Of a DNA stretch of 12,876 nucleotides, positions 2,597 through 12,876 are shown one piece after another; position 1 is the first letter of the stretch, and the number at the start of each line of letters is the position of its first letter. The notes beneath the pieces are model-generated. The model made no database searches, was not told where the DNA came from, and worked only from the letters and a program-made list of their open reading frames with translations. The stretch spans positions 1 through 12,876 of the forward strand of contig JALOMX010000014.1 in NCBI GenBank assembly GCA_025455245.1. Direction: 5' to 3'. The position numbers were made by a program, and so were the translations under genes. The DNA comes from Chitinophagaceae bacterium (lineage in GTDB: Bacteria; Bacteroidota; Bacteroidia; Chitinophagales; Chitinophagaceae).

Positions 2597-5155
2597 TCAA
2601 CCTAATGCGGCCTGCATTTTGCGGATACGGTCTTCAAGTTTTTCAGTAGTAAGGTTGTTGCGGTTGAGGCCATCTACTATGATAGGAAAACTAAGTGGGG
2701 TAAGTCTTTCCGGGAAAGTTATAATGATTGGGTTTTCTACAATACGCTGCAGGGCTTGTCTCAGTCGCACTTCTTCCATCTGCTGTTCAAATACTTCGTT
2801 GTATGCCTGTCTGAGCAATAAGTTTTCCGGATCGAATTCGCGGAATACCTTGAACAGCAGCGATGCTGAAGCCTGCAGGTGGCGGGCTTTTTTTTGTTCG
2901 CCCGGCATGCCGGGAAAAATCAGTCCGCCGATAACGGCAATATCCCGAAATTTCCGCATAGCCATTTCAACCTGATTGGTGCTTTTCTGCATATCCGCAA
3001 GCAGGTTGTCAAGAGAGAAAAGATCATAAACATTTGAGTCGTCAACGGGGATCGGCTTGTCGCTCAGCAATTCAAAGCCATAGTCGTTCATGGCTATACT
3101 GAAACTAATAGGCAAGATTTTACCGATCCGGTAAGCGAGTATGGCGCTCAAAGCTTCATGGATCTGTCTTCCTTCAAAAGGATAAACGAGCAGGTGATAT
3201 CCTTCTTCATCTTCATGATGCTCTATTAATAATTCATTTTGTCTTGGTATGTGCGAAAGGTCCTCCTGAAGGTGCAGCAAAGGTTCGAGGCTCCTTAGTT
3301 CTATCGGAAAAGACCCGGAAGGGGCGCCTTTCACCAGATCAGATGTCTGCGAAAATGTTTCCCTCAATACTTCACCAAGATTCGCGGTCAGGCTCATCCG
3401 TCCACCCATCCAGCTTGGTACGATTGTTTTTTTGCTGTTGCTTTTGCGTACCAGTACCGTCATGTCTTTTACCTGAACCAATTCAACATTGCGGCCGGCA
3501 AGGGTAAAAGCATCTCCCGGTTCAAGCCGGCTGATAAACCATTCTTCAATATGTCCGATATAGCCACCTGTCATGAATTTCACCTTCAGCATGGCATCGC
3601 TTACAATGGTGCCAATGCCCAGCCTGTGGCGAAGGGCCAACCTTCTGCTTTTTATCCTGTAGTTTCCATCAGGCTCTATATCTACTTTTCTGTACTCATC
3701 ATATTGTTTTAATGCCTGTCCTCCTTCCGTAAGGTGGTTCAGAAGTGCCAGCCACTCATCATTGGTTAATTCTGCATAGCTGTAGGTGTTTTTTAAAACC
3801 GGAAAAATCTCTTCGGGCTTAAATCCATCACCAACAGCGAGTGTGCATAAAAACTGAAGCAAAACATCGTAGCATAGCAAAAGGGGTATCCGATCTTCGA
3901 TATACCCACGGTGCATGGCTTGCTGCAATGCTGCCGACTCTACCAGTTCAAGGCTATGTGTAGGTAAAAAGTATATATGGCTTACCTCGCCGGGTTGATG
4001 ACCTGCCCGGCCCGCCCTTTGCAAAAACCTTGCCACTCCTTTGGGTGATCCTACCTGGATAACCGAATCTACCGGCCTGAAGTCAACCCCAAGGTCAAGG
4101 CTAGCAGTGGTAACCACCGCTTTTAGTTTTTCTGTATGAAGCGCTTCTTCCACCCACTGCCGCAGTTCCATTTCTATACTGCCGTGGTGAAGGGCAATGG
4201 CACCTGCAAGTTCGGGAGCGATATCCAGCAGGCTTTGGTACCAACGCTCGGCCATGCCACGCGTATTGATAAAGATTAAGGTTGTTTTACTCTTTTCGAT
4301 AATCGGGACAACCTTCCCGATGAGTTTGATTCCCAGATGGCCTGCCCATGGATACTTTTCAATTTCATCGGGAATAATGGTATGTACAGCGATCTTTTTA
4401 TCTATTTCGGCCTTTACAACTACCCCGGATTGACGCAGCGATTTTAAAAGAACATCCTGTGCCTCATCCAGATTTCCTATGGTTGCCGAAATACCCCAGA
4501 TCAAGGGAGATGAGGAAGTTTTGATTAGGGGTTTTTGATGACCGGCAGAATTTGGCGAAACCAATTCGTCAGCCTGTTCATTTGATTCCCGGCATTTATG
4601 TATCAGGTATGCAAGGGCCAATTCTACCTGAACTCCACGCTTGCTTCCAAGCAATTCATGCCATTCATCCACTGCAATAATGCGGAGTGTATTGAAAAAG
4701 GAACCATGGTCTTTGGTAGCAAGGAGCAGGTGGAGGCTTTCCGGAGTAATGATCAGCACTTCAGGTGCTTTTTTACGCTGTCGCGCCCTTTCTGAAACGG
4801 ATGTGTCGCCGTTGCGCACGGCAATTTGCCATTGCATTCCCAGCGCTGAAACAACTTCTTCCATTGCCCTTCCGATATCTTTTGCAAGGGCACGCAGGGG
4901 CGTTATCCAGAGAAGTTGTAACCCGTTTTGCTTAATGGATTTCCAGTCCGAGGGATGGGCATTTATAAACCGGATAAGGGCACCGAGAAAAACTGAAAAT
5001 GTTTTTCCGCAGCCCGTAGGGGCATTTACCATTCCGCTTCTTTCTTCGATAATATGTTTCCATACCTCTTCCTGAAATTTAAACGGCAACATTGATTTTT
5101 GGGAAAGCCAATGATAAATTACTTCTTCCCCCGGTGTTTTTTTTTCGGTATTCAC
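2597..5155 (-). CDS. Lhr-like DExH helicase, ligase-associated DNA damage response type
   Basis: This 852-residue superfamily 2 helicase has all core motifs: Walker A NAPTGCGKT (44-52), Ia TPLRALA (85-91), motif II DEWH (163-166), III SAT (223-225), V TASLDLGVDF (350-359) and VI QRAGRAGH (379-386). After the two RecA folds comes the Lhr-type C-terminal region to residue 852. The DEWHELLGSKRGVQ and GSPKGVARFLQRAGRAGH segments and the length fit the bacterial ligase-associated DExH helicase subgroup. These are ATP-driven DNA translocases thought to act in DNA repair with a neighbouring ATP-dependent ligase, nuclease and phosphoesterase. None of those partners is in this window. The start is GTG at 5155, chosen because GTGA overlaps the stop of the upstream cytochrome gene by four bases; the next Met (residue 22) would remove expected N-terminal sequence. 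A Ser/Asn/Gln-rich stretch at about 188-215, between motifs II and III, looks like an insertion. Cytoplasmic. Confidence 0.9.
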   Translation of the reverse strand: MNTEKKTPGEEVIYHWLSQKSMLPFKFQEEVWKHIIEERSGMVNAPTGCGKTFSVFLGALIRFINAHPSDWKSIKQNGLQLLWITPLRALAKDIGRAMEEVVSALGMQWQIAVRNGDTSVSERARQRKKAPEVLIITPESLHLLLATKDHGSFFNTLRIIAVDEWHELLGSKRGVQVELALAYLIHKCRESNEQADELVSPNSAGHQKPLIKTSSSPLIWGISATIGNLDEAQDVLLKSLRQSGVVVKAEIDKKIAVHTIIPDEIEKYPWAGHLGIKLIGKVVPIIEKSKTTLIFINTRGMAERWYQSLLDIAPELAGAIALHHGSIEMELRQWVEEALHTEKLKAVVTTASLDLGVDFRPVDSVIQVGSPKGVARFLQRAGRAGHQPGEVSHIYFLPTHSLELVESAALQQAMHRGYIEDRIPLLLCYDVLLQFLCTLAVGDGFKPEEIFPVLKNTYSYAELTNDEWLALLNHLTEGGQALKQYDEYRKVDIEPDGNYRIKSRRLALRHRLGIGTIVSDAMLKVKFMTGGYIGHIEEWFISRLEPGDAFTLAGRNVELVQVKDMTVLVRKSNSKKTIVPSWMGGRMSLTANLGEVLRETFSQTSDLVKGAPSGSFPIELRSLEPLLHLQEDLSHIPRQNELLIEHHEDEEGYHLLVYPFEGRQIHEALSAILAYRIGKILPISFSIAMNDYGFELLSDKPIPVDDSNVYDLFSLDNLLADMQKSTNQVEMAMRKFRDIAVIGGLIFPGMPGEQKKARHLQASASLLFKVFREFDPENLLLRQAYNEVFEQQMEEVRLRQALQRIVENPIIITFPERLTPLSFPIIVDGLNRNNLTTEKLEDRIRKMQAALG

Positions 5156-6561
5156 AATGTTTTCAGGTATTCTATTACTGCTTTACGCTCAATGTCATTC
5201 AGTTTGTCACCAAAGGTATGACCATGATTATTATAACCCCTCAATGTTGTGTTGTAAGTGCTTTTGTTAATTTGTTTCTCATGTTCTTTATAAATCCATC
5301 CTACTTTTTCATAATCATATTCAGGCTTGTCAAAACTTCTTTCCCAGTAAACAGGGCGGGTTTTACTGTTTAAAAGGGTTTCAAGGTTTGGAACGCTTCC
5401 GTTGTGCAAATATGGCGCTGTAATCCATACCCCATCGAGCGGTGGTGCAATATATCCCTTGAAGGGAACAAGGTCTGCCTTGCGCTCTCCGGTTCTGAAC
5501 CAGCTTTGCCTGAACCAATCCAAAAACTGAGGACTGCTGAAGTTGGATTCTACGAGGGCTGAGTCTGTTTTGATAATTTCTAAAGGAACCAGCAAATTGG
5601 GATAGTTTTCATCGGCTCCATACTTTCCATGACATTTGGCGCAGTTTTTATCAAACAACGGTTTGCCTTTTGACGCAAGGTCCTGATCGATCGGTTTGGG
5701 ATATTTGGGAGGCTTGATTGAATAAATATAGGCGAGCACATCATCAAAATGGGTAAGCACCTCTGCTGCTTCCGCAGTGTCGGTAACCGTAAGCAGGTTT
5801 GCCGCCATCAAAAAACGCGGGAAATCACCCCTTCCGAATCCGCTGTAAAACATGGCATTTTTCTTTTTAAGCAACCACCAGGCGGGTACATCCGTCGGGA
5901 TGACTTCTTTTGATAATGCAAGGCCCGGTTCATTGCGCCATACAAAACTTTTCGGATCGCGATGGGCTGCAAGCACGGCTGTTAGCCGGTCAGCAATATT
6001 TACACCTTTACTTGCCGTGGTTAAATAAGGCGCCGTTGTTTTACCGGCCCTTATAAAGTTCGTGGCTGCAGCACGGTCTTTTTCGTTCATCAATTTCAAG
6101 GCTGTTTCGGCCATTGCCATTGCAGCCTGCTGTGGCAAGCTGTAATCACTCAGGCTGTTGCCCAGGCCGATTATTACACTGTCGCCCCAGGTTTGAGCAT
6201 GACAAAACATGCAGTTCGGAGCACCAACTTTAGCGCCATTGGGTGCGGTAATAACGGTAAAATCATAAGGGACCCCTTTGTTGTCTCCTTGTCTGCCAAG
6301 GTCGGGTTTTCCCGATCCTGCAAGAAAGGCCTGTTTAAATAAGTTTACCGGTATTCCGCTTTTCAGATAGTCACCCTCGGTCAGGTATGTAAATCCTTTT
6401 TCTGCATTGCCCGGGAATTGTTTATGGGCAGGAATGGGAACAGTACCTGCAGGTGAAGCATATTCAGCAGGAATATTGCTGATACGGGAAGCACATGCAA
6501 TAAACAGACTGAAAGCCGATATGATAAATAGCCACTTTTTCAGAGGAAAGTTCATAAACAT
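5152..6561 (-). CDS. di-haem c-type cytochrome lipoprotein (cytochrome c peroxidase/RoxA-like)
   Basis: This 469-residue exported protein has two haem c attachment motifs, CMFCH (117-121) and CAKCH (307-311). The N-terminus has Lys-Lys, a hydrophobic run and FIAC (C23), a plausible lipobox, so it is probably lipid-anchored in the periplasm or outer membrane. The segment DVPAWWLLKKKNAMFYSGFGRGDFPR (about 224-249) and the C-terminal APPLDGVWITAPYLHNGSVPNL (about 372-393) are typical of di-haem cytochromes related to cytochrome c peroxidase and RoxA-type oxygenases. Whether it reduces peroxide, oxygenates a substrate or only carries electrons cannot be told. The start could be the ATG at 6561 or the one at 6555; both keep the signal sequence. 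It is first in a two-gene unit, its TGA overlapping the GTG of the helicase gene. No TAnnTTTG promoter was found upstream. Confidence 0.88.
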   Translation of the reverse strand: MFMNFPLKKWLFIISAFSLFIACASRISNIPAEYASPAGTVPIPAHKQFPGNAEKGFTYLTEGDYLKSGIPVNLFKQAFLAGSGKPDLGRQGDNKGVPYDFTVITAPNGAKVGAPNCMFCHAQTWGDSVIIGLGNSLSDYSLPQQAAMAMAETALKLMNEKDRAAATNFIRAGKTTAPYLTTASKGVNIADRLTAVLAAHRDPKSFVWRNEPGLALSKEVIPTDVPAWWLLKKKNAMFYSGFGRGDFPRFLMAANLLTVTDTAEAAEVLTHFDDVLAYIYSIKPPKYPKPIDQDLASKGKPLFDKNCAKCHGKYGADENYPNLLVPLEIIKTDSALVESNFSSPQFLDWFRQSWFRTGERKADLVPFKGYIAPPLDGVWITAPYLHNGSVPNLETLLNSKTRPVYWERSFDKPEYDYEKVGWIYKEHEKQINKSTYNTTLRGYNNHGHTFGDKLNDIERKAVIEYLKTL

Positions 6562-6868: not shown

Positions 6869-8566
6869 TCAGAATTCTTTCTTTAGCGGCAGTAGAATAA
6901 ATTCCCCTTCAGGTTCGTGATCGCCGAAGGCGGCCTGATGGGGAAAGATTCGCATGTTGGTATCGTCATACAATCCGGCTTTCTGCAGACTACTGAAGAT
7001 ATCTGATGCCGTAAGCATTCCTACTTCGCCTCCTGCGCCATACAACAGATTAAGTAAATATGTGGCGAAGGGCGAATGTTTTCCTACCATCCCATCAAAA
7101 GCCGGTTGTTTCCCAACTGATGTCAATAATTTACGGCTTTTATAATTGCTTTTTTCAAGGAAAAACTGATTTACATTTTGCCGTAAAATAGCATCCTTGT
7201 TTTCACCGCTACGCATTGGCCCGCCAAGTACCTTTTCATCAAAGGTCCCGGCATGGCATATATCCAGCAGGACGAGGACGTTTCCTGATGGCATTTTATT
7301 AAGGATCCTTTTCAGTTTGCTGTGGGCGATGTATGTGTTGCGCATAACATCTTCCTCAACAGATTTTGAATCTATACAAACCAGAAAACCATCATCAAGC
7401 AGTGCCTGATCATAATCACCGTGCCCGGCGGCATAAAAAATAAAGTCATCATCAGGCTTCATTTTGGAATAAAGATCAAGCAGTGTGTTGTAAATAGTTG
7501 CCGCTTTGGGGTCTCTGAGCACAATGGTGTCGTAACCATACAGATCTTTCAATACGGTTGCAATTTCATTGGCATCTCTTATGGGATTATTGAGCGGGTC
7601 CCAGCCTTTAACCCTGTAATGGTCAATTCCAATTAGCAGTGCGAATTTGTTTTTATTGGCCAGTGCCTGTTTGGCAGGTTCGGGTAGATTTAATTTGACC
7701 GTCCTGCTTCTTGTAACAAGATTATTCCGGTTAATCTGTTGATATAGTTTTAAAAAATCTCTTTCAAAAAATACATCCGCATAATCGGGTGCACAATTAT
7801 TGATGATGGCCTGAGCTACGGCATTTGCTTTTTCCTTTATCAAAAGATCAGTAAGCCTGAATTTAGCGGTATCCAACTTTTGAAGCGCAAGTGCAAGCAT
7901 GCCGCCATCTTTAAGTTCTTGTCCAATTTTTTTAGGTGCAACAATAACCCTGTTTATACTTTGCAATGCTGCAACATCGGGAGAGCCTTGCATAAGCGCT
8001 GAAGCAAATTCTGCATTCAGGTTGGCAGTGCTTGCTGCTTCGGCAATGAAAAGCTGATTTCTGCAAGGCAAAAGCTGAACATGCTCCTGAAGTAATTTGA
8101 GTGAAATGAGCCCGGAAAATTCATCCCTGCCAAGTGCACTGTCTGTAAACAAAAATTCAGGCTTAATGTCATCAGTACTACCAAACGGGGCAAACCATGT
8201 TTCAAAGTTTGCAGGATCATTTCCATTAAAAACAGTTAATCCGGCAAAAAAGAATACAAACAGATCATTGGGTTCTGCTGATCTTGCGATATGCTTAATC
8301 AAATTTAAAATAGAATCCTTAGTGGCGTATTTGTCAAGCAGCAAATAATGCTCATCATTTTTACCTTTCGCCTGATTTTTTAAAATTGAATGAATGGCGA
8401 CAGCATCTTTTTTACAATTCATCAGCGGGAATGATTTGTAGAGATCAATTCCAACAGAAATGGAGTAGGTTTTTCCAATGGTATCTTTTTTAATGCCCGC
8501 GCCGGAATAGCCGTAAATACACGAAAGCAGAAGAATTCCTGTAATGATTCCGGTAATTTTTACCAT
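6869..8566 (-). CDS. exported tandem caspase-like protein: pseudo-caspase plus active C14 caspase domain
   Basis: This 565-residue protein has an N-terminal hydrophobic export signal (about 1-20). LLSC ending at C16 could be a lipobox, otherwise signal peptidase I cleavage follows. Two caspase folds follow. The second (about 305-560) starts FALLIGIDHY, has YAAGHG (H382) and LLDICHAG (C437), the His-Cys dyad of peptidase C14, and a p10-like part with KLLTSVGKQPAFDG and HSPFATYLLNLL. The first (about 33-250) starts YSISVGIDLY and keeps the same layout including a p10-like part (RVIVAPKK...GGMLALALQKL). However, the His position reads FFFAGLT (L110) and the Cys position falls in FIAEAAST (about A178), so it should be inactive. 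It follows the WD40-caspase gene by 11 bases in the same operon. An inactive-active pair suggests internal dimerisation or allosteric control, by analogy with eukaryotic caspase-8/cFLIP; this is inference. Confidence 0.88.
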   Translation of the reverse strand: MVKITGIITGILLLSCIYGYSGAGIKKDTIGKTYSISVGIDLYKSFPLMNCKKDAVAIHSILKNQAKGKNDEHYLLLDKYATKDSILNLIKHIARSAEPNDLFVFFFAGLTVFNGNDPANFETWFAPFGSTDDIKPEFLFTDSALGRDEFSGLISLKLLQEHVQLLPCRNQLFIAEAASTANLNAEFASALMQGSPDVAALQSINRVIVAPKKIGQELKDGGMLALALQKLDTAKFRLTDLLIKEKANAVAQAIINNCAPDYADVFFERDFLKLYQQINRNNLVTRSRTVKLNLPEPAKQALANKNKFALLIGIDHYRVKGWDPLNNPIRDANEIATVLKDLYGYDTIVLRDPKAATIYNTLLDLYSKMKPDDDFIFYAAGHGDYDQALLDDGFLVCIDSKSVEEDVMRNTYIAHSKLKRILNKMPSGNVLVLLDICHAGTFDEKVLGGPMRSGENKDAILRQNVNQFFLEKSNYKSRKLLTSVGKQPAFDGMVGKHSPFATYLLNLLYGAGGEVGMLTASDIFSSLQKAGLYDDTNMRIFPHQAAFGDHEPEGEFILLPLKKEF

Positions 8567-8577
8567 ACATATCAGCT

Positions 8578-11500
8578 TTATTCAATTTTCTTTAAAACCA
8601 TGTTGATGAGAACAGCCGCAAAATCTGCCCTTTCAATTTTTTCTAATTTTAAAGGTAAATCCCTTCCATCAAACTGAAGAGAACCATTCAGCGAAATTTT
8701 ATCATTTTCCATAGAATATATTCCACTGATACTGCAGGCTCCGGGAAACTCATCAACATCAAGAAATGTAAACTCAGATTTTGGACCTTTTTCAATGGTT
8801 AGTTCAATCATTTTTTGTTTTACTTCCTGTGACAGCTTTAATACGTCCCTTGTTTTACTCAGTTCTAGTAAAACAGGGCGTACAAAAACCGGTTTTACCT
8901 CTGCAAGCGGTATGTTTTTCTTATCACTTTCATTGACTATGCCAATATCAAAGCTGCCTGTAGTGGGAATAAGCATTTGGGGTTCCTGAATGCCGCCAAG
9001 GCCCGATGCAAGCAAGGGAACTCTTTCCCGTGCATATTGCAATACATTCAATACATCTACCATTTTATAATCCTTTAATGCAGGCCCTTTCATGCCTTCG
9101 AGAATGCTGTATGTAAGTAACCCCTGACCATAAATGTTGGACTCGTAACTTTCAGCATCGGCTGTACATCCGCTGATTATGTATAAGCCTGTTCTGTCTT
9201 TCATGCGATCGATGGCCCTTATTTGCAGGGCATCAATATTGCGCATGGCAAGCATATTGTCTACGGCTTTACCACTGCCGCAAGCGTCAATAATCATGAT
9301 GCGCTTCAAAGCGTCTATGCCATTAAGCATCTGGGTAAATTCTGTAGTGCTGATGGTCTGTTTTTCACGCAGTACGGGATCCCGGAAACTTGAAGCCCTT
9401 GAACCGCTTGCCTCTTTTGTCAGGTAAAAAAAATCATCATTATCTCCGCCAAGCGTAATTCCATGACCGCTCAGGTAAACCATTATGATGTCTTCGGGCT
9501 TTGCCCGCTTACTTACTTCTTCAAAGGTGTTTTTAATATTGACTTTTGTGGTAGGGGTTTTGCCCGGATTAGTAATAATAAACAAATGTGTGCTGTCGGT
9601 TCCGAACAGGTTGCCCCCTGATAAAGAAATTGCTTTTGCCATAGCTTCTGCATCTCGGACAGGATAGCGAAGGTTAATGCGTGGATCACTATACTCGTTT
9701 GTTCCGCAAATGATGGCATAAAGAGCCGGATTCCGGCGTTTGCTGCTATCCAATGCTGGCTTAACTACTGTAATGCCCCGGCTGCTGATGAAGCCATCAG
9801 CAGATTGTGCCTTAACTGAAATGTGGTTATCTATTCCTTCTGCAAGGAAGGATGCAATATTTACGAAGAGTTTTTGCTGCTGTAAAGATGTATCAAAACC
9901 TGAAGGCCTTGCATCTTCAATTACTTCTATATTATTGACATATATACTTATTTTTCCATATCCTCCATCCCTCTTTTTCAGATCAATCGGTAAAATACCG
10001 TCTTTTATTTCGCCGGTTATTACTTCAGGATAAAGTTTTACTTCTCCCATACCAGCAACACTTCTCAGTGCCTTATTTTCCAGGACCATATTCCAAAGAC
10101 CCGGTTGATAGAACCTGTCTTTCAGCTGATTCAGTTCAATTATTTCATTCTCCTTCACCCAATACATTTTTCCCATGGCTTCGGGGGTTGCATCAAATAA
10201 TCCCGATGGATGAACGATAACCCAGTCTTTATCTTCAATTAAATAGAAACTGATAAGTTCTCTTCCCGCAGGAAAATCCAGCAGTTTGAATTCTGAATTT
10301 CTAAATGAAAGGATCTTTTGTGTTTTCAGGTTAATATCCGCAAATTCAAAGTTTATCCCCATGGGGATTTCATATCTTAGCTTGCCTGTCTGTGCATTCC
10401 AGATTTGAACCAGTCTCCTTGTTGCCGTAATTATTTGATTGCCATCCGGGTCATACTCAATTCGGATAAAATTATTATCCTTTCCGTCAATAATAAATAT
10501 TGGATCTTTTGTCCCAAACTTATATGCAAGGATTTTGTTGTTAGCAGACTCCTTCAGGAACCACTTACCATCCGGGCTGATTATTGCTCCATTGTACAGG
10601 AAATCCTCATTTGAAGTTGTTTCAAAAATTTTATTGCCATCTTTTGCATCCCAAACAATGGCTTTTTTATCTGCAAATGCCATTATTTTTTCTCCGTCAG
10701 GACTTAATTGCACATAGTAATTTTCATTGAGCTTGTCTTTGAGCGATAAAATCACTTCACCGGTGTTCGGATCATACATTTTTATGCTTCCGTCAACATG
10801 CACACTCATTAATGATTTCCCATCACTGCTTATATTCAGGGATGTAATCGGGTTTATTGAGTCGCTTATCTCACGAATCAGGGTAGCTGTTTTTGTTTCC
10901 CATATCCTTATCACCGAATCCATTCCGGTAATGAACAGTAATTCACCCTTCCCGGAAAATACCGGGGGATTTTGGCCAAGGTATTTTTTATCAATTGAAT
11001 GCAAAAATTTTCCATTCGAAGCATCCATAAAAAACATAGAGTCGCCGGATGTAACAAACAGTTTATTTCCATTCGGCAAAAGGTCAGCTCTGTTCAACTC
11101 ATTCCCTTTCACAGAAACTTTTGTATTAATTCTGAAATGTTCTGCATCCAGCACCTTATAAGTCTCAAGGTCGTTGACTACAAGAATCTTGCTTCCATCC
11201 TCTGAAAAGGTTACACTCCCTACAACATTGGTATATCCTCTTAATGTTTTTCGGATTTTTTCATCCGGGATTGTTATCAGGTACGATGACCCATCAAGGG
11301 AGCCTGCAATTAATTTATCTTCTTCCTCATTTACAGAAAGTGAGGTAAGTAGTTTATCTTTTACTGTTTGAATTTCATGGATGACTTCACCGTTAGATGT
11401 ATTCCAAATCTTTATTATTCCAGACCCCGTGGCTGTATATAGGCGATTACCGTCTTTATTGAAATGCACTACATTGAATTGCTCCCGGGGAATTTCGAAA

Positions 11501-12207
11501 GTCTTTATTTGTTTTCCTGTTTCTATATCCCATTGGCCGCCTATGTGTTCGTAACTTGCTGTGATAATGGATTTGTTGTCCGGTGAAAAAAAAGCATAAT
11601 TTATACCATCAGTATATTTCCAGTCAAATGCTGCTAATCGTTTACCTGTTATGGCATCCCATAGTATTGGTCCTTCCAGTGCTGATGCAGTTAATATCTT
11701 ATTTCCTTCTTGATTAAAAGTTGCCGAGAGAAAAATAGCATTTGGATCTTTAATAATTATCAGGTTTTTCCCTGTTGAAATATCCCATGTTCGGACAGTG
11801 TTATCAGAAGATGTCGAAAGAAGTTTCCTCCCGTCATAACTGAATGATACCGAGGAAACGTGATTTTTATGTCCGCTGAATTCCTTTAATATTTCTCCTT
11901 TAAATGCATCCCAGAGAATAATGGTACTGTCTATCGAAGATGTTGCAATGGTTTTACCGTCAGGGCTGAATGCGGCACCTGTAATTTTTCCGAGGTGGCC
12001 TTTTAGTTCAATTATTTCATGACCGGTTTCGGTATCCCATATCTTGGCATTATTATCATCCGATGCTGTTACGATTCGCATTCCATCAGGACTGAATTGA
12101 ATGGCTGAAACAGAGCCGGAATGCCCGGAAGGAATAACAAGCCTCGGTTCCTGAGACAATGCCGAAAAGGAAAGCAATATGAATAATTCAAGGAAGATTA
12201 ACTTCAT
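8578..12207 (-). CDS. secreted WD40 repeat-caspase fusion protein
   Basis: This 1209-residue protein begins with a clear signal peptide (MKLIFLELFILLSFSALS, likely cleavage before Q19). Residues 25 to about 650 hold about 15 WD40-like units of about 42 residues, most ending in WD or WN plus xxTG (W57, W99, W141, W183, W226, W268, W436, W519, W603). Units 7-9, 11, 13 and 15 have lost the Trp. That is enough for two seven-bladed propellers. A DWVIVHPSGLFDATPEAMGKMYWV linker (661-684) and a beta-rich segment (about 720-815) lead to a caspase domain (828 to about 1085) with YLSGHG (H915) and IIDACGSG (C976), so the dyad is intact, and a p10-like part with ISGCTADAESYES. Residues 1100-1209 form a further helix-plus-beta region I do not recognise. 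It is first in an operon with the tandem-caspase gene. The family is known in bacteria (orthocaspases with WD40), where propellers are thought to bind partners. Substrates are unknown. Confidence 0.93.
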   Translation of the reverse strand: MKLIFLELFILLSFSALSQEPRLVIPSGHSGSVSAIQFSPDGMRIVTASDDNNAKIWDTETGHEIIELKGHLGKITGAAFSPDGKTIATSSIDSTIILWDAFKGEILKEFSGHKNHVSSVSFSYDGRKLLSTSSDNTVRTWDISTGKNLIIIKDPNAIFLSATFNQEGNKILTASALEGPILWDAITGKRLAAFDWKYTDGINYAFFSPDNKSIITASYEHIGGQWDIETGKQIKTFEIPREQFNVVHFNKDGNRLYTATGSGIIKIWNTSNGEVIHEIQTVKDKLLTSLSVNEEEDKLIAGSLDGSSYLITIPDEKIRKTLRGYTNVVGSVTFSEDGSKILVVNDLETYKVLDAEHFRINTKVSVKGNELNRADLLPNGNKLFVTSGDSMFFMDASNGKFLHSIDKKYLGQNPPVFSGKGELLFITGMDSVIRIWETKTATLIREISDSINPITSLNISSDGKSLMSVHVDGSIKMYDPNTGEVILSLKDKLNENYYVQLSPDGEKIMAFADKKAIVWDAKDGNKIFETTSNEDFLYNGAIISPDGKWFLKESANNKILAYKFGTKDPIFIIDGKDNNFIRIEYDPDGNQIITATRRLVQIWNAQTGKLRYEIPMGINFEFADINLKTQKILSFRNSEFKLLDFPAGRELISFYLIEDKDWVIVHPSGLFDATPEAMGKMYWVKENEIIELNQLKDRFYQPGLWNMVLENKALRSVAGMGEVKLYPEVITGEIKDGILPIDLKKRDGGYGKISIYVNNIEVIEDARPSGFDTSLQQQKLFVNIASFLAEGIDNHISVKAQSADGFISSRGITVVKPALDSSKRRNPALYAIICGTNEYSDPRINLRYPVRDAEAMAKAISLSGGNLFGTDSTHLFIITNPGKTPTTKVNIKNTFEEVSKRAKPEDIIMVYLSGHGITLGGDNDDFFYLTKEASGSRASSFRDPVLREKQTISTTEFTQMLNGIDALKRIMIIDACGSGKAVDNMLAMRNIDALQIRAIDRMKDRTGLYIISGCTADAESYESNIYGQGLLTYSILEGMKGPALKDYKMVDVLNVLQYARERVPLLASGLGGIQEPQMLIPTTGSFDIGIVNESDKKNIPLAEVKPVFVRPVLLELSKTRDVLKLSQEVKQKMIELTIEKGPKSEFTFLDVDEFPGACSISGIYSMENDKISLNGSLQFDGRDLPLKLEKIERADFAAVLINMVLKKIE

Positions 12208-12354
12208 GAGTATCCTTCTGATTTAATATATGAATAAATGAATGTCAAATGTTGCCGGGCAATCATATATGTCTGAATTCTAAAACAATGTTTAATTTCG
12301 AATTTCTCTGGACTTCCGTATGAAATCTCAATGTACAAAGAATCAGACATTTAT
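12208..12354. promoter_or_regulatory. 147-bp divergent intergenic region between caspase operon and metacaspase gene
   Basis: Both transcription units must start in or near this AT-rich gap. No perfect TAnnTTTG is present. The best plus-strand near match is TAATTTCG (12293-12300). On the minus strand a TTGACA hexamer (12248-12243) lies upstream of TATATTAAAT, but spacing and phylum preference make it weak. A CATATATG palindrome occurs at 12264-12271 and a short direct repeat AATTTC at 12294-12306. Promoter positions are therefore unresolved; only the divergent layout is secure. Confidence 0.45.
12213..12217 (-). promoter_or_regulatory. Shine-Dalgarno-like site of the WD40-caspase gene
   Basis: AAGGA on the minus strand lies five bases before the ATG at 12207. 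It is the only clear SD-like sequence seen before a start in this window, since the other genes lack one as is usual in Bacteroidota. It supports the chosen start. Confidence 0.5.
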
Positions 12355-12876
12355 ATGAGAAAAATATTATCCTTTTTTATTTTCTTTTCGCTGTATTTCA
12401 ATTATGTGGCTGACGCTCAGGAAAAGCATGCACTTTTAATTGCGATTAATCAATACGAACCAACCGGGGGTATTCCTAAGGTTAACCAAACAGGACTTCG
12501 TTCAGGGTTCAGTAATCTCGATGGATGTGTCAACGATGCGTTAGCCATGAAATCGCTGCTGTTATCCCGCTTCGGTTTTTCAAATAATACAATCAGGGAG
12601 ATATATGATCAGGAAGCTACCCGGAAGCGGATAATGGATGAAGTGGCATCCTTAACGGAAAGGGTCAAAGCCGGAGATCATGTATTTATATTTTATGCCG
12701 GGCATGGCAGTCAGCAACCTAACAGCCTTTCACCCGAGTCAGATAAGCTTGATGAAACCCTTGTGCCTGCTGATGCCTGGCAAAACCCCTTCAGTGATAT
12801 CAGGGATAAAGAACAGCGCGTTTGGTATAACAACCTGCTAAACAAGGGGGCTAACCTTACCGTTATTTTTGACTGT
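12355..12876 (+). CDS. secreted type I metacaspase-like peptidase C14, N-terminal 174 residues (cut at right edge)
   Basis: The frame is open from the ATG at 12355 to the last base. A signal peptide (MRKILSFFIFFSLYFNYVADA, likely cleavage before Q22) is followed directly by a caspase p20-like domain: HALLIAINQYEP (25-36), LDGCVNDALAMKSLL (55-69), the catalytic His in FYAGHGSQ (H117), and SDKLDETLVPADA (129-141), which resembles the type I metacaspase DETLVPxD segment. The last residues, VIFDC (170-174), are the start of the catalytic DxC motif. The active-site Cys would be the next codon, outside the window. An in-frame ATG at 12331 would add eight residues (MYKESDIY) before the signal peptide, so 12355 is preferred. 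There is no pro-domain before the p20 part. Type I metacaspases cut after Arg or Lys; by family analogy this one may too. It is transcribed away from the other two caspase-like genes. Confidence 0.87.
   Translation, partial: MRKILSFFIFFSLYFNYVADAQEKHALLIAINQYEPTGGIPKVNQTGLRSGFSNLDGCVNDALAMKSLLLSRFGFSNNTIREIYDQEATRKRIMDEVASLTERVKAGDHVFIFYAGHGSQQPNSLSPESDKLDETLVPADAWQNPFSDIRDKEQRVWYNNLLNKGANLTVIFDC

Follow-up and report, generated by a model that had tools for sequence, protein, structure and literature searches.

What do three caspase-like proteases of different build, encoded side by side in one bacterial genome, act upon? The question is raised by a stretch of DNA from a Chitinophagaceae bacterium (assembly GCA_025455245.1, contig JALOMX010000014.1), called the window below, which is the complete contig C241 of 12876 bases from a 2.6-Mb assembly that is 78% complete. 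At 6869..12876 it carries a tandem caspase gene, in which a catalytically dead caspase domain precedes an active one, a WD40-caspase gene, and the first part of a metacaspase-like gene. A caspase cluster with export-like starts is a real, conserved grouping in some Chitinophagales. Bacterial homologues of caspases have, to our knowledge, few known substrates, and their role is usually guessed to be cell death or immunity. The reading preferred here, for which the balance is nearly even, is that these caspases are exported, cut after Arg, and serve both to mature small secreted proteins and to process the pseudo-caspase tethered to one of them. If true, this would give bacterial caspases a constructive role in the secretory pathway instead of one in cell death.

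The three caspase genes

The window proteins are members of peptidase family C14 (orthocaspase/metacaspase), with PF00656 matches over the cut-off (tandem caspase 8.5e-25; metacaspase-like protein 3.6e-15; WD40-caspase 3.5e-16, the last from a genome search), catalytic dyads and a caspase fold. The whole 2.6-Mb assembly contains seven PF00656 matches, three of them within the window. A sequence-only reading had placed three caspase-like genes here, two of them co-directional and the third divergent. Its coordinates and the gap it gave are correct, and PF00656, our own C14 profile and the dyads agree with its reading. From right to left the order is metacaspase-like gene (plus strand), WD40-caspase (minus) and tandem caspase (minus), with the following features.

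6869..8566, minus strand: tandem caspase gene, 565 aa, with signal-like start, dead C14 domain, linker and active C14 domain (Pfam, own C14 profile, dyad check)
7958..8476, minus strand: pseudo-caspase domain, residues 31-203, with Leu and Ala at the catalytic positions (own C14 profile, 4e-31; MCA2 match)
7703..7711, minus strand: candidate processing site in the interdomain linker, Arg286-Ser287-Arg288 (Arg in 25/25 representatives; pLDDT <50)
6998..7654, minus strand: active C14 domain, residues 305-523, with His382 and Cys437 (own C14 profile, 1e-66)
7211..7213, minus strand: Arg452, which may be a maturation site, in a disordered loop following the catalytic Cys (Arg in 20/25 representatives; pLDDT <50)
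8567..8577: 11-base gap between the co-directional tandem and WD40-caspase genes
8578..12207, minus strand: WD40-caspase gene, 1209 aa, with signal-like start, long beta-propeller region, linker domain, C14 domain and C-terminal domain (profiles, model)
9043..9723, minus strand: C14 domain of the WD40-caspase, residues 829-1055, with His915 and Cys976 (own C14 profile, 1e-43; dyad)
12208..12330: divergent spacer of 123 bases between the WD40-caspase and metacaspase-like genes
12331..12876, plus strand: metacaspase-like gene, 5' part only, 182 aa, open at the contig end (PF00656; own C14 profile)

The His/Cys dyad is intact in the second domain of the tandem protein and in the WD40-caspase, and is replaced by Leu/Ala in the first domain of the tandem protein, which is dead. 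In the metacaspase-like protein the C14 domain spans residues 30-182 (own C14 profile, 1e-26) and the catalytic His is present; the contig stops just before the expected catalytic Cys. This fragment is 52% identical to the member in locus L016 over about 170 residues. Full-length relatives in the loci described below have 746-780 aa, and the two that were scanned both carry a C-terminal DUF4384-like match. A search of the window genome with the C-terminal part of the metacaspase gave no match at E 0.01, and extension to the right, as the sequence-only reading had proposed, yields no further sequence in this assembly, the window being the whole contig. In a structural model of WD40-caspase residues 21-1209 (pLDDT 81, pTM 0.63) a long run of strands, corresponding to the propeller region, is followed by the linker, C14 and C-terminal domains, with low confidence directly after the catalytic Cys (about residues 978-1025). 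C14 is the sole Pfam match of the tandem and metacaspase-like proteins at E 0.001, with no C25 catalytic domain, and none is among the matches listed for the WD40-caspase (best 25 of 50). Likewise, a type IX C-terminal sorting domain is absent from the Pfam matches of the tandem protein and from those listed for the WD40-caspase (25 of 50), while the third gene is without its C-terminus.

All three window proteins pass a home-made signal-peptide heuristic. This test is loose: it passes 134 of 150 C14 open reading frames (ORFs), but also 303 of 664 other ORFs. The earlier claim of export signals on all three proteins thus holds at the level of export-like starts, which are conserved among relatives, and from these we infer export itself. 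The lipobox-like start of the window tandem protein was considered as a conserved lipoprotein signal and rejected, the Cys in question being absent in the closest relatives.

Conservation of the cluster

A scan with the tandem alignment across one genome per species (84,980 genomes) yielded 79 loci, the best of 104 hits. Counts are to be read as at least the number given, one search listing its stronger matches and another 120 of 298 proteins. The tandem clade closest to the window comprises 11 loci (L013-L022 and L027). Nine of these have a member of the metacaspase-DUF4384 family within 10 kb, and ten have another C14 gene within that distance; in L019, on a 6-kb contig, the neighbour of 1266 aa is C14 by our own profile and unreported by Pfam. 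The remaining locus, L022, has a lone tandem gene and no other C14 gene. Two kinds of cluster can be told apart. In L014, L016, L018 and L021 there is only a divergent metacaspase/tandem pair, 127-204 bases apart. The larger clusters of L013, L015, L017, L020 and L027 hold five or six C14 ORFs each, and these are the five loci of the clade with a WD40-type caspase, within about 10 kb (split across two overlapping ORFs in L013). Their further C14 members bear TPR, WD40 or, in L020, ankyrin repeats and are accompanied by small secreted proteins and by a CGPC thioredoxin-like protein with a start that looks signal-like by eye. The metacaspase and tandem genes point apart in all eight loci measured. 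By chance, a C14 neighbour within 10 kb is expected in 2-10% of cases per genome; at least nine such neighbours among ten loci with long flanks corresponds to a P of about 1e-11 if kinship is ignored. As the loci belong to a few synteny groups, this figure overstates their independence.

The window gene order is repeated in L125, where the tandem gene is cut by the contig end and the WD40-caspase has broken frames and belongs to a different C14 clade from that of the window. Joining L125 and L019 into one locus was ruled out, as their ends do not overlap and their tandem fragments differ. Among the relatives listed (for the WD40-caspase, 120 of 673), the closest to the tandem protein (78%) and to the WD40-caspase (82%) come from the same source, whose longest contig has 9247 bases, and probably from one contig. 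Profile searches at order level scored only the best candidates per genome, and extra copies may have been missed. Across 396 genomes of the order, the tandem profile matched 11 at 1e-40, six of them full-length by a query-coverage cut, including one triple-domain protein; the metacaspase family was found in four genomes, and both families in two.

Caspase arrays also occur in other forms. L126 (1-19500) contains five C14 ORFs in 19.5 kb and no tandem caspase there. Broken WD40-caspase frames lie inside the arrays of L123 (14102-18001) and L125 (12628-16188), which suggests turnover of array members.

A pseudo-caspase tethered to an active caspase

In all 25 representatives the linker between the two C14 domains of the tandem protein contains an Arg, and in 24 of them the next residue is Gly. 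This Arg stands out against variable surroundings that are modelled with low confidence (pLDDT <50). No conserved Arg precedes the C14 domain in the linker of the WD40-caspases across 20 representatives. Asp331 and Asp435 occur in all 25 tandem representatives; we equate them with acidic residues of the MALT1 S1 pocket. The C14 proteases of the cluster are predicted to be Arg-specific. The pseudo-domain part of the A1 profile matches the solved metacaspase MCA2 (1.1e-4); the fold search of the tandem protein covers mainly the active domain, for which matches include entry 3h11. At the catalytic positions, the pseudo-domains of relatives have Tyr, Phe, Arg, Leu, Ile or other residues, together with Gly.

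The pseudo-domains form a single clade (0.97) in a midpoint-rooted FastTree phylogeny of 120 C14 domains. The pseudo-domain is thus not a recent copy of its active partner, a possibility that was ruled out by this separate clade. The three window genes fall into separate deep clades and therefore are not recent tandem copies of one caspase. The window WD40-caspase groups with the first WD40-caspase of L015, L017 and L027 and with those of L115 and L126 (0.995); because the proteins of L015, L017 and L027 share no more than about 26% identity with it over most of the length, orthology is not claimed. Eight loci (L023-L026 and L028-L031) encode fusions with a third C14 domain ahead of the tandem. 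This extra front domain has both His and Cys in none of the eight and lies in a clade sister to the metacaspase-DUF4384 clade (0.96). In such triple proteins one domain retains an intact dyad and the other two do not. One of the eight loci, L030, has further C14 neighbours.

Candidate substrates

Two families of small preproteins are encoded near caspase genes of relatives. Family cl16 (about 131 aa) consists of a signal peptide, a pro-region, an Arg-Gly junction and a C-terminal domain; family cl2 (about 130 aa) has a signal peptide, an Arg-Gly/Ser site, a pro-region, an Arg-Gly/Ala site and a Cys/Tyr/Trp-rich tail. No Pfam family over the cut-off was found for either. A sample of 21 genomes, made up of 18 with genes related to the tandem and of G000, G262 and G040, gave 12 cl16 matches in 11 genomes and eight cl2 matches in six. 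The cl16 profile alone was found in 12 of the 396 genomes of the order, and in ten of these a C14 gene is 44-116 bp away from it, the exceptions being G061 and a weak match in G174. Pooling both searches gives 21 distinct cl16 genes, three genomes recurring under two handles as judged by identical coordinates. Sixteen of the 21 lie at most 201 bp from a C14 gene, and each of these 16 neighbouring C14 proteins passes the export heuristic, in four cases from a downstream Met. Genomes with a full-length tandem or triple protein have cl16 in four of six cases, against a base rate of 12/396 (hypergeometric 7e-6, kinship ignored).

An Arg precedes the C-terminal part in all 21 cl16 proteins, followed by Gly in 19, Ser in one (G012) and Ala in one (G174). 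Each of the eight cl2 proteins has at least two Arg-Gly/Ala/Ser sites, with only two or three Arg in total after the signal peptide. Of the TPR-caspases, 7/9 carry Arg-Gly just after the signal peptide. The conserved neighbours and the shared Arg-Gly junction together name specific candidate substrates, and exact sites, in the relatives. The Cys/Tyr/Trp-rich family of the cl2 type shares loci with the thioredoxin-like protein, which is export-like as well. L015 (11972-12352), L013 (6457-6861) and L154 (6724-7152) encode secreted proteins in which an Arg-Gly/Ala junction is followed by a tail extremely rich in Cys, Tyr and Trp; two members of this family were scanned and had no Pfam family over the cut-off.

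Proposed function and alternative explanations

The products of the locus would be exported, Arg-specific proteases of the orthocaspase type. The tandem protein may be a zymogen in which the dead first domain, tethered by the disordered linker, holds the active second domain in check. Cleavage behind the linker Arg, and possibly also within the loop that follows the catalytic Cys, would release the active domain or change its arrangement; sibling proteases or the tandem protein itself could make the cut. The WD40 propeller, and the TPR or ankyrin repeats of cluster-mates elsewhere, may serve in docking or sensing. In relatives, the end products would be small secreted preproteins cut at Arg-Gly/Ala/Ser, which would release the C-terminal domain or the Cys/Tyr/Trp-rich tail, and the window locus would have its own preprotein past the contig end. 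The tandem protein, with its dead caspase domain joined to an active one through a conserved candidate cut site, would also be a model of pseudo-enzyme control. In its full form, the proposal is of an exported maturation pathway in Chitinophagales: caspases with repeats, together with a zymogen that carries its own tethered pseudo-caspase, would cut dedicated preproteins at Arg-Gly. This form is tentative and falls somewhat short of an even chance. The sequence-only reading had suggested an envelope or extracellular proteolytic cascade used for regulated lysis, surface-protein maturation or sensing. Maturation of surface proteins and proteolytic activation fit the linker Args and the adjacent preproteins of relatives; regulated lysis and a particular order of activation found no support. 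Neither of the two outcomes that the sequence-only reading had named as counting against it arose, since the parts are neighbours in other genera and export-like starts are conserved.

Several observations speak against the proposed maturation pathway. None of nine same-genus genomes contains the tandem gene, and the WD40-caspase is also absent from all nine at E 1e-30. Neither cl16 nor cl2 gave a match in the window genome, which is 78% complete and lacks the relevant flank, and both families are missing from the whole genomes G418, G420, G422 and G425, to which L014, L016, L018 and L021 belong; the metacaspase/tandem pair can thus exist without the preproteins. For five of the 21 cl16 genes (one in G427 on a 3-kb contig, two in G428, one in G433 and the weak match in G174) the 3-17 kb fetched contain no C14 gene. 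Small export-like ORFs as a whole do not carry [ST]RG significantly more often near C14 genes (9 of 38) than far from them (4 of 37; p 0.22), and the substrate case therefore rests on cl16 and cl2. The distant tandem loci L033, L051, L116 and L117 have no C14 neighbour. These lone tandems, together with the differing contents of the arrays, the WD40-caspase array of L126, where the 19.5 kb fetched include no tandem gene, and the low identity of the L015, L017 and L027 WD40-caspases to that of the window, would suit a looser arrangement: an array in which every exported caspase acts by itself on its own target and the members, kept together by common regulation or gene gain, do not activate one another. 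We regard such an array as unlikely, if by no means negligible: the deep separation of the three window genes argues against recent copies, the metacaspase and tandem genes are divergent in every locus measured, and the fusions and the invariant linker Arg suggest linkage.

The Arg-Gly sites might instead be cut by another protease, with the caspases acting otherwise nearby. A trypsin-PDZ protease of the Arg-cutting type, and so a real competitor for such sites, is encoded close to cl16 or the metacaspase gene in L125, L124, L147, L168 and L171, and a weaker relative (1e-25) occurs in L149, where cl16 has no C14 neighbour. C14 genes are, however, the commoner neighbours of cl16, no trypsin-PDZ relative was found in the 17 kb fetched for G199, G226, G234, G250, G340 and G358, and the tandem caspases themselves carry the Arg-Gly linker. 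This explanation appears improbable. Still more improbable, in our view, is an envelope-located conflict or cell-death system akin to cytoplasmic caspase defence systems. The PADLOC 'caspase' model does match all three window proteins (1.7e-23, 8.2e-10 and 1.8e-22), and in a scan of eight proteins against defence models it was the single model matched besides one HEAT-ARM model. The NCBIfam model for EACC1-associated caspases (NF047832) scores 72.3, 55.9 and 27 bits, far under its curated cut-off of 140 bits, and the starts of the proteins look exported. Genes for TIR-SIR2, nSTAND1 and patatin proteins in L125 (407-5107), about 1.4-6 kb from cl16, weigh on the side of immunity and keep that link open; immune-type genes were seen in L125 only, some of the flanking proteins having been scanned.

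Relation to known systems

Control of an active caspase by a dead caspase domain is familiar from caspase-8 and c-FLIP. The tandem protein resembles that heterodimer in combining an active with a dead caspase domain, and the fold matches of its active domain include the related entry 3h11; here both domains are in one chain. C25 gingipains and C14 caspases both belong to clan CD. By analogy, the closest functional precedent would be the processing of Mfa4 by Arg-gingipain, which takes place after Arg53 in Porphyromonas gingivalis (PMC4789730). Arg-gingipain is an exported Bacteroidota cysteine protease that cuts secreted preproteins of fimbriae and the cell surface after Arg and so yields their mature form, whereas cleavage is only predicted here, the protease families differ (C25 versus C14) and the substrates are unrelated. 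Gingipain precursors carry a propeptide removed during maturation (PMC3677877); in the tandem protein a dead caspase domain stands in its place.

Bacterial caspase clusters as such were already surveyed in 2012, and in this respect the sequence-only reading needs correction. The available portions of that survey (PMC3501461) report 20 operons with more than one metacaspase, and at most three, in four groups including Bacteroidetes, name WD40 as the most frequent partner domain of bacterial metacaspases (73 sequences, 10.9%), and note N-terminal helices that may be signal peptides. The surveyed metacaspases and orthocaspases with WD40 or TPR are thus similar to the present ones in C14 domain, WD40 repeats, multi-gene operons and N-terminal helices; the dead-plus-active tandem, the conserved grouping and the preprotein partners are features found here and not described in those portions. 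Nothing recognisable as this grouping or these preproteins was found in the open-licence literature, a scope outside which most subscription papers lie. Pseudo-orthocaspases make up 10 of 1078 Bacteroidetes sequences, with Tyr and Ser replacing the catalytic His/Cys, and orthocaspases cleave after positively charged residues (PMC6426788). Like these, the pseudo-domain of the tandem protein is a caspase domain without the catalytic His/Cys. It differs in its fusion to an active domain and in the residues at the catalytic positions, which are Leu/Ala in the window and various/Gly in relatives; the Tyr/Ser pair was not found in the window protein.

Other neighbouring genes

To the left of the tandem gene, the window encodes a RoxA-like cytochrome, an Lhr-type helicase, a GH125 glycosidase and a DUF1800 protein. 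The RoxA-like cytochrome (5152-6561) adjoins the caspase operon and has a lipoprotein-type start according to the heuristic. The trypsin-PDZ genes lie at 9363-10889 in L125, 6480-7925 in L124, 7141-8682 in L147, 2216-3829 in L168 and 9225-10715 in L171, and the weaker relative at 3872-5389 in L149. A gene for a CHASE2 protein, followed by one for a secreted protein of about 300 aa, recurs as a pair near C14 genes or cl16 (L124, 8088-10143; L030, 11113-13207; L168, 3998-5994; L148, 3857-5870). In L148 this pair stands beside two cl16 genes, with no C14 gene in the 14 kb fetched. Small secreted proteins encoded in L014 (2725-3144) and L021 (1983-2396) have a C-terminus that, by eye, resembles a type IX sorting domain.

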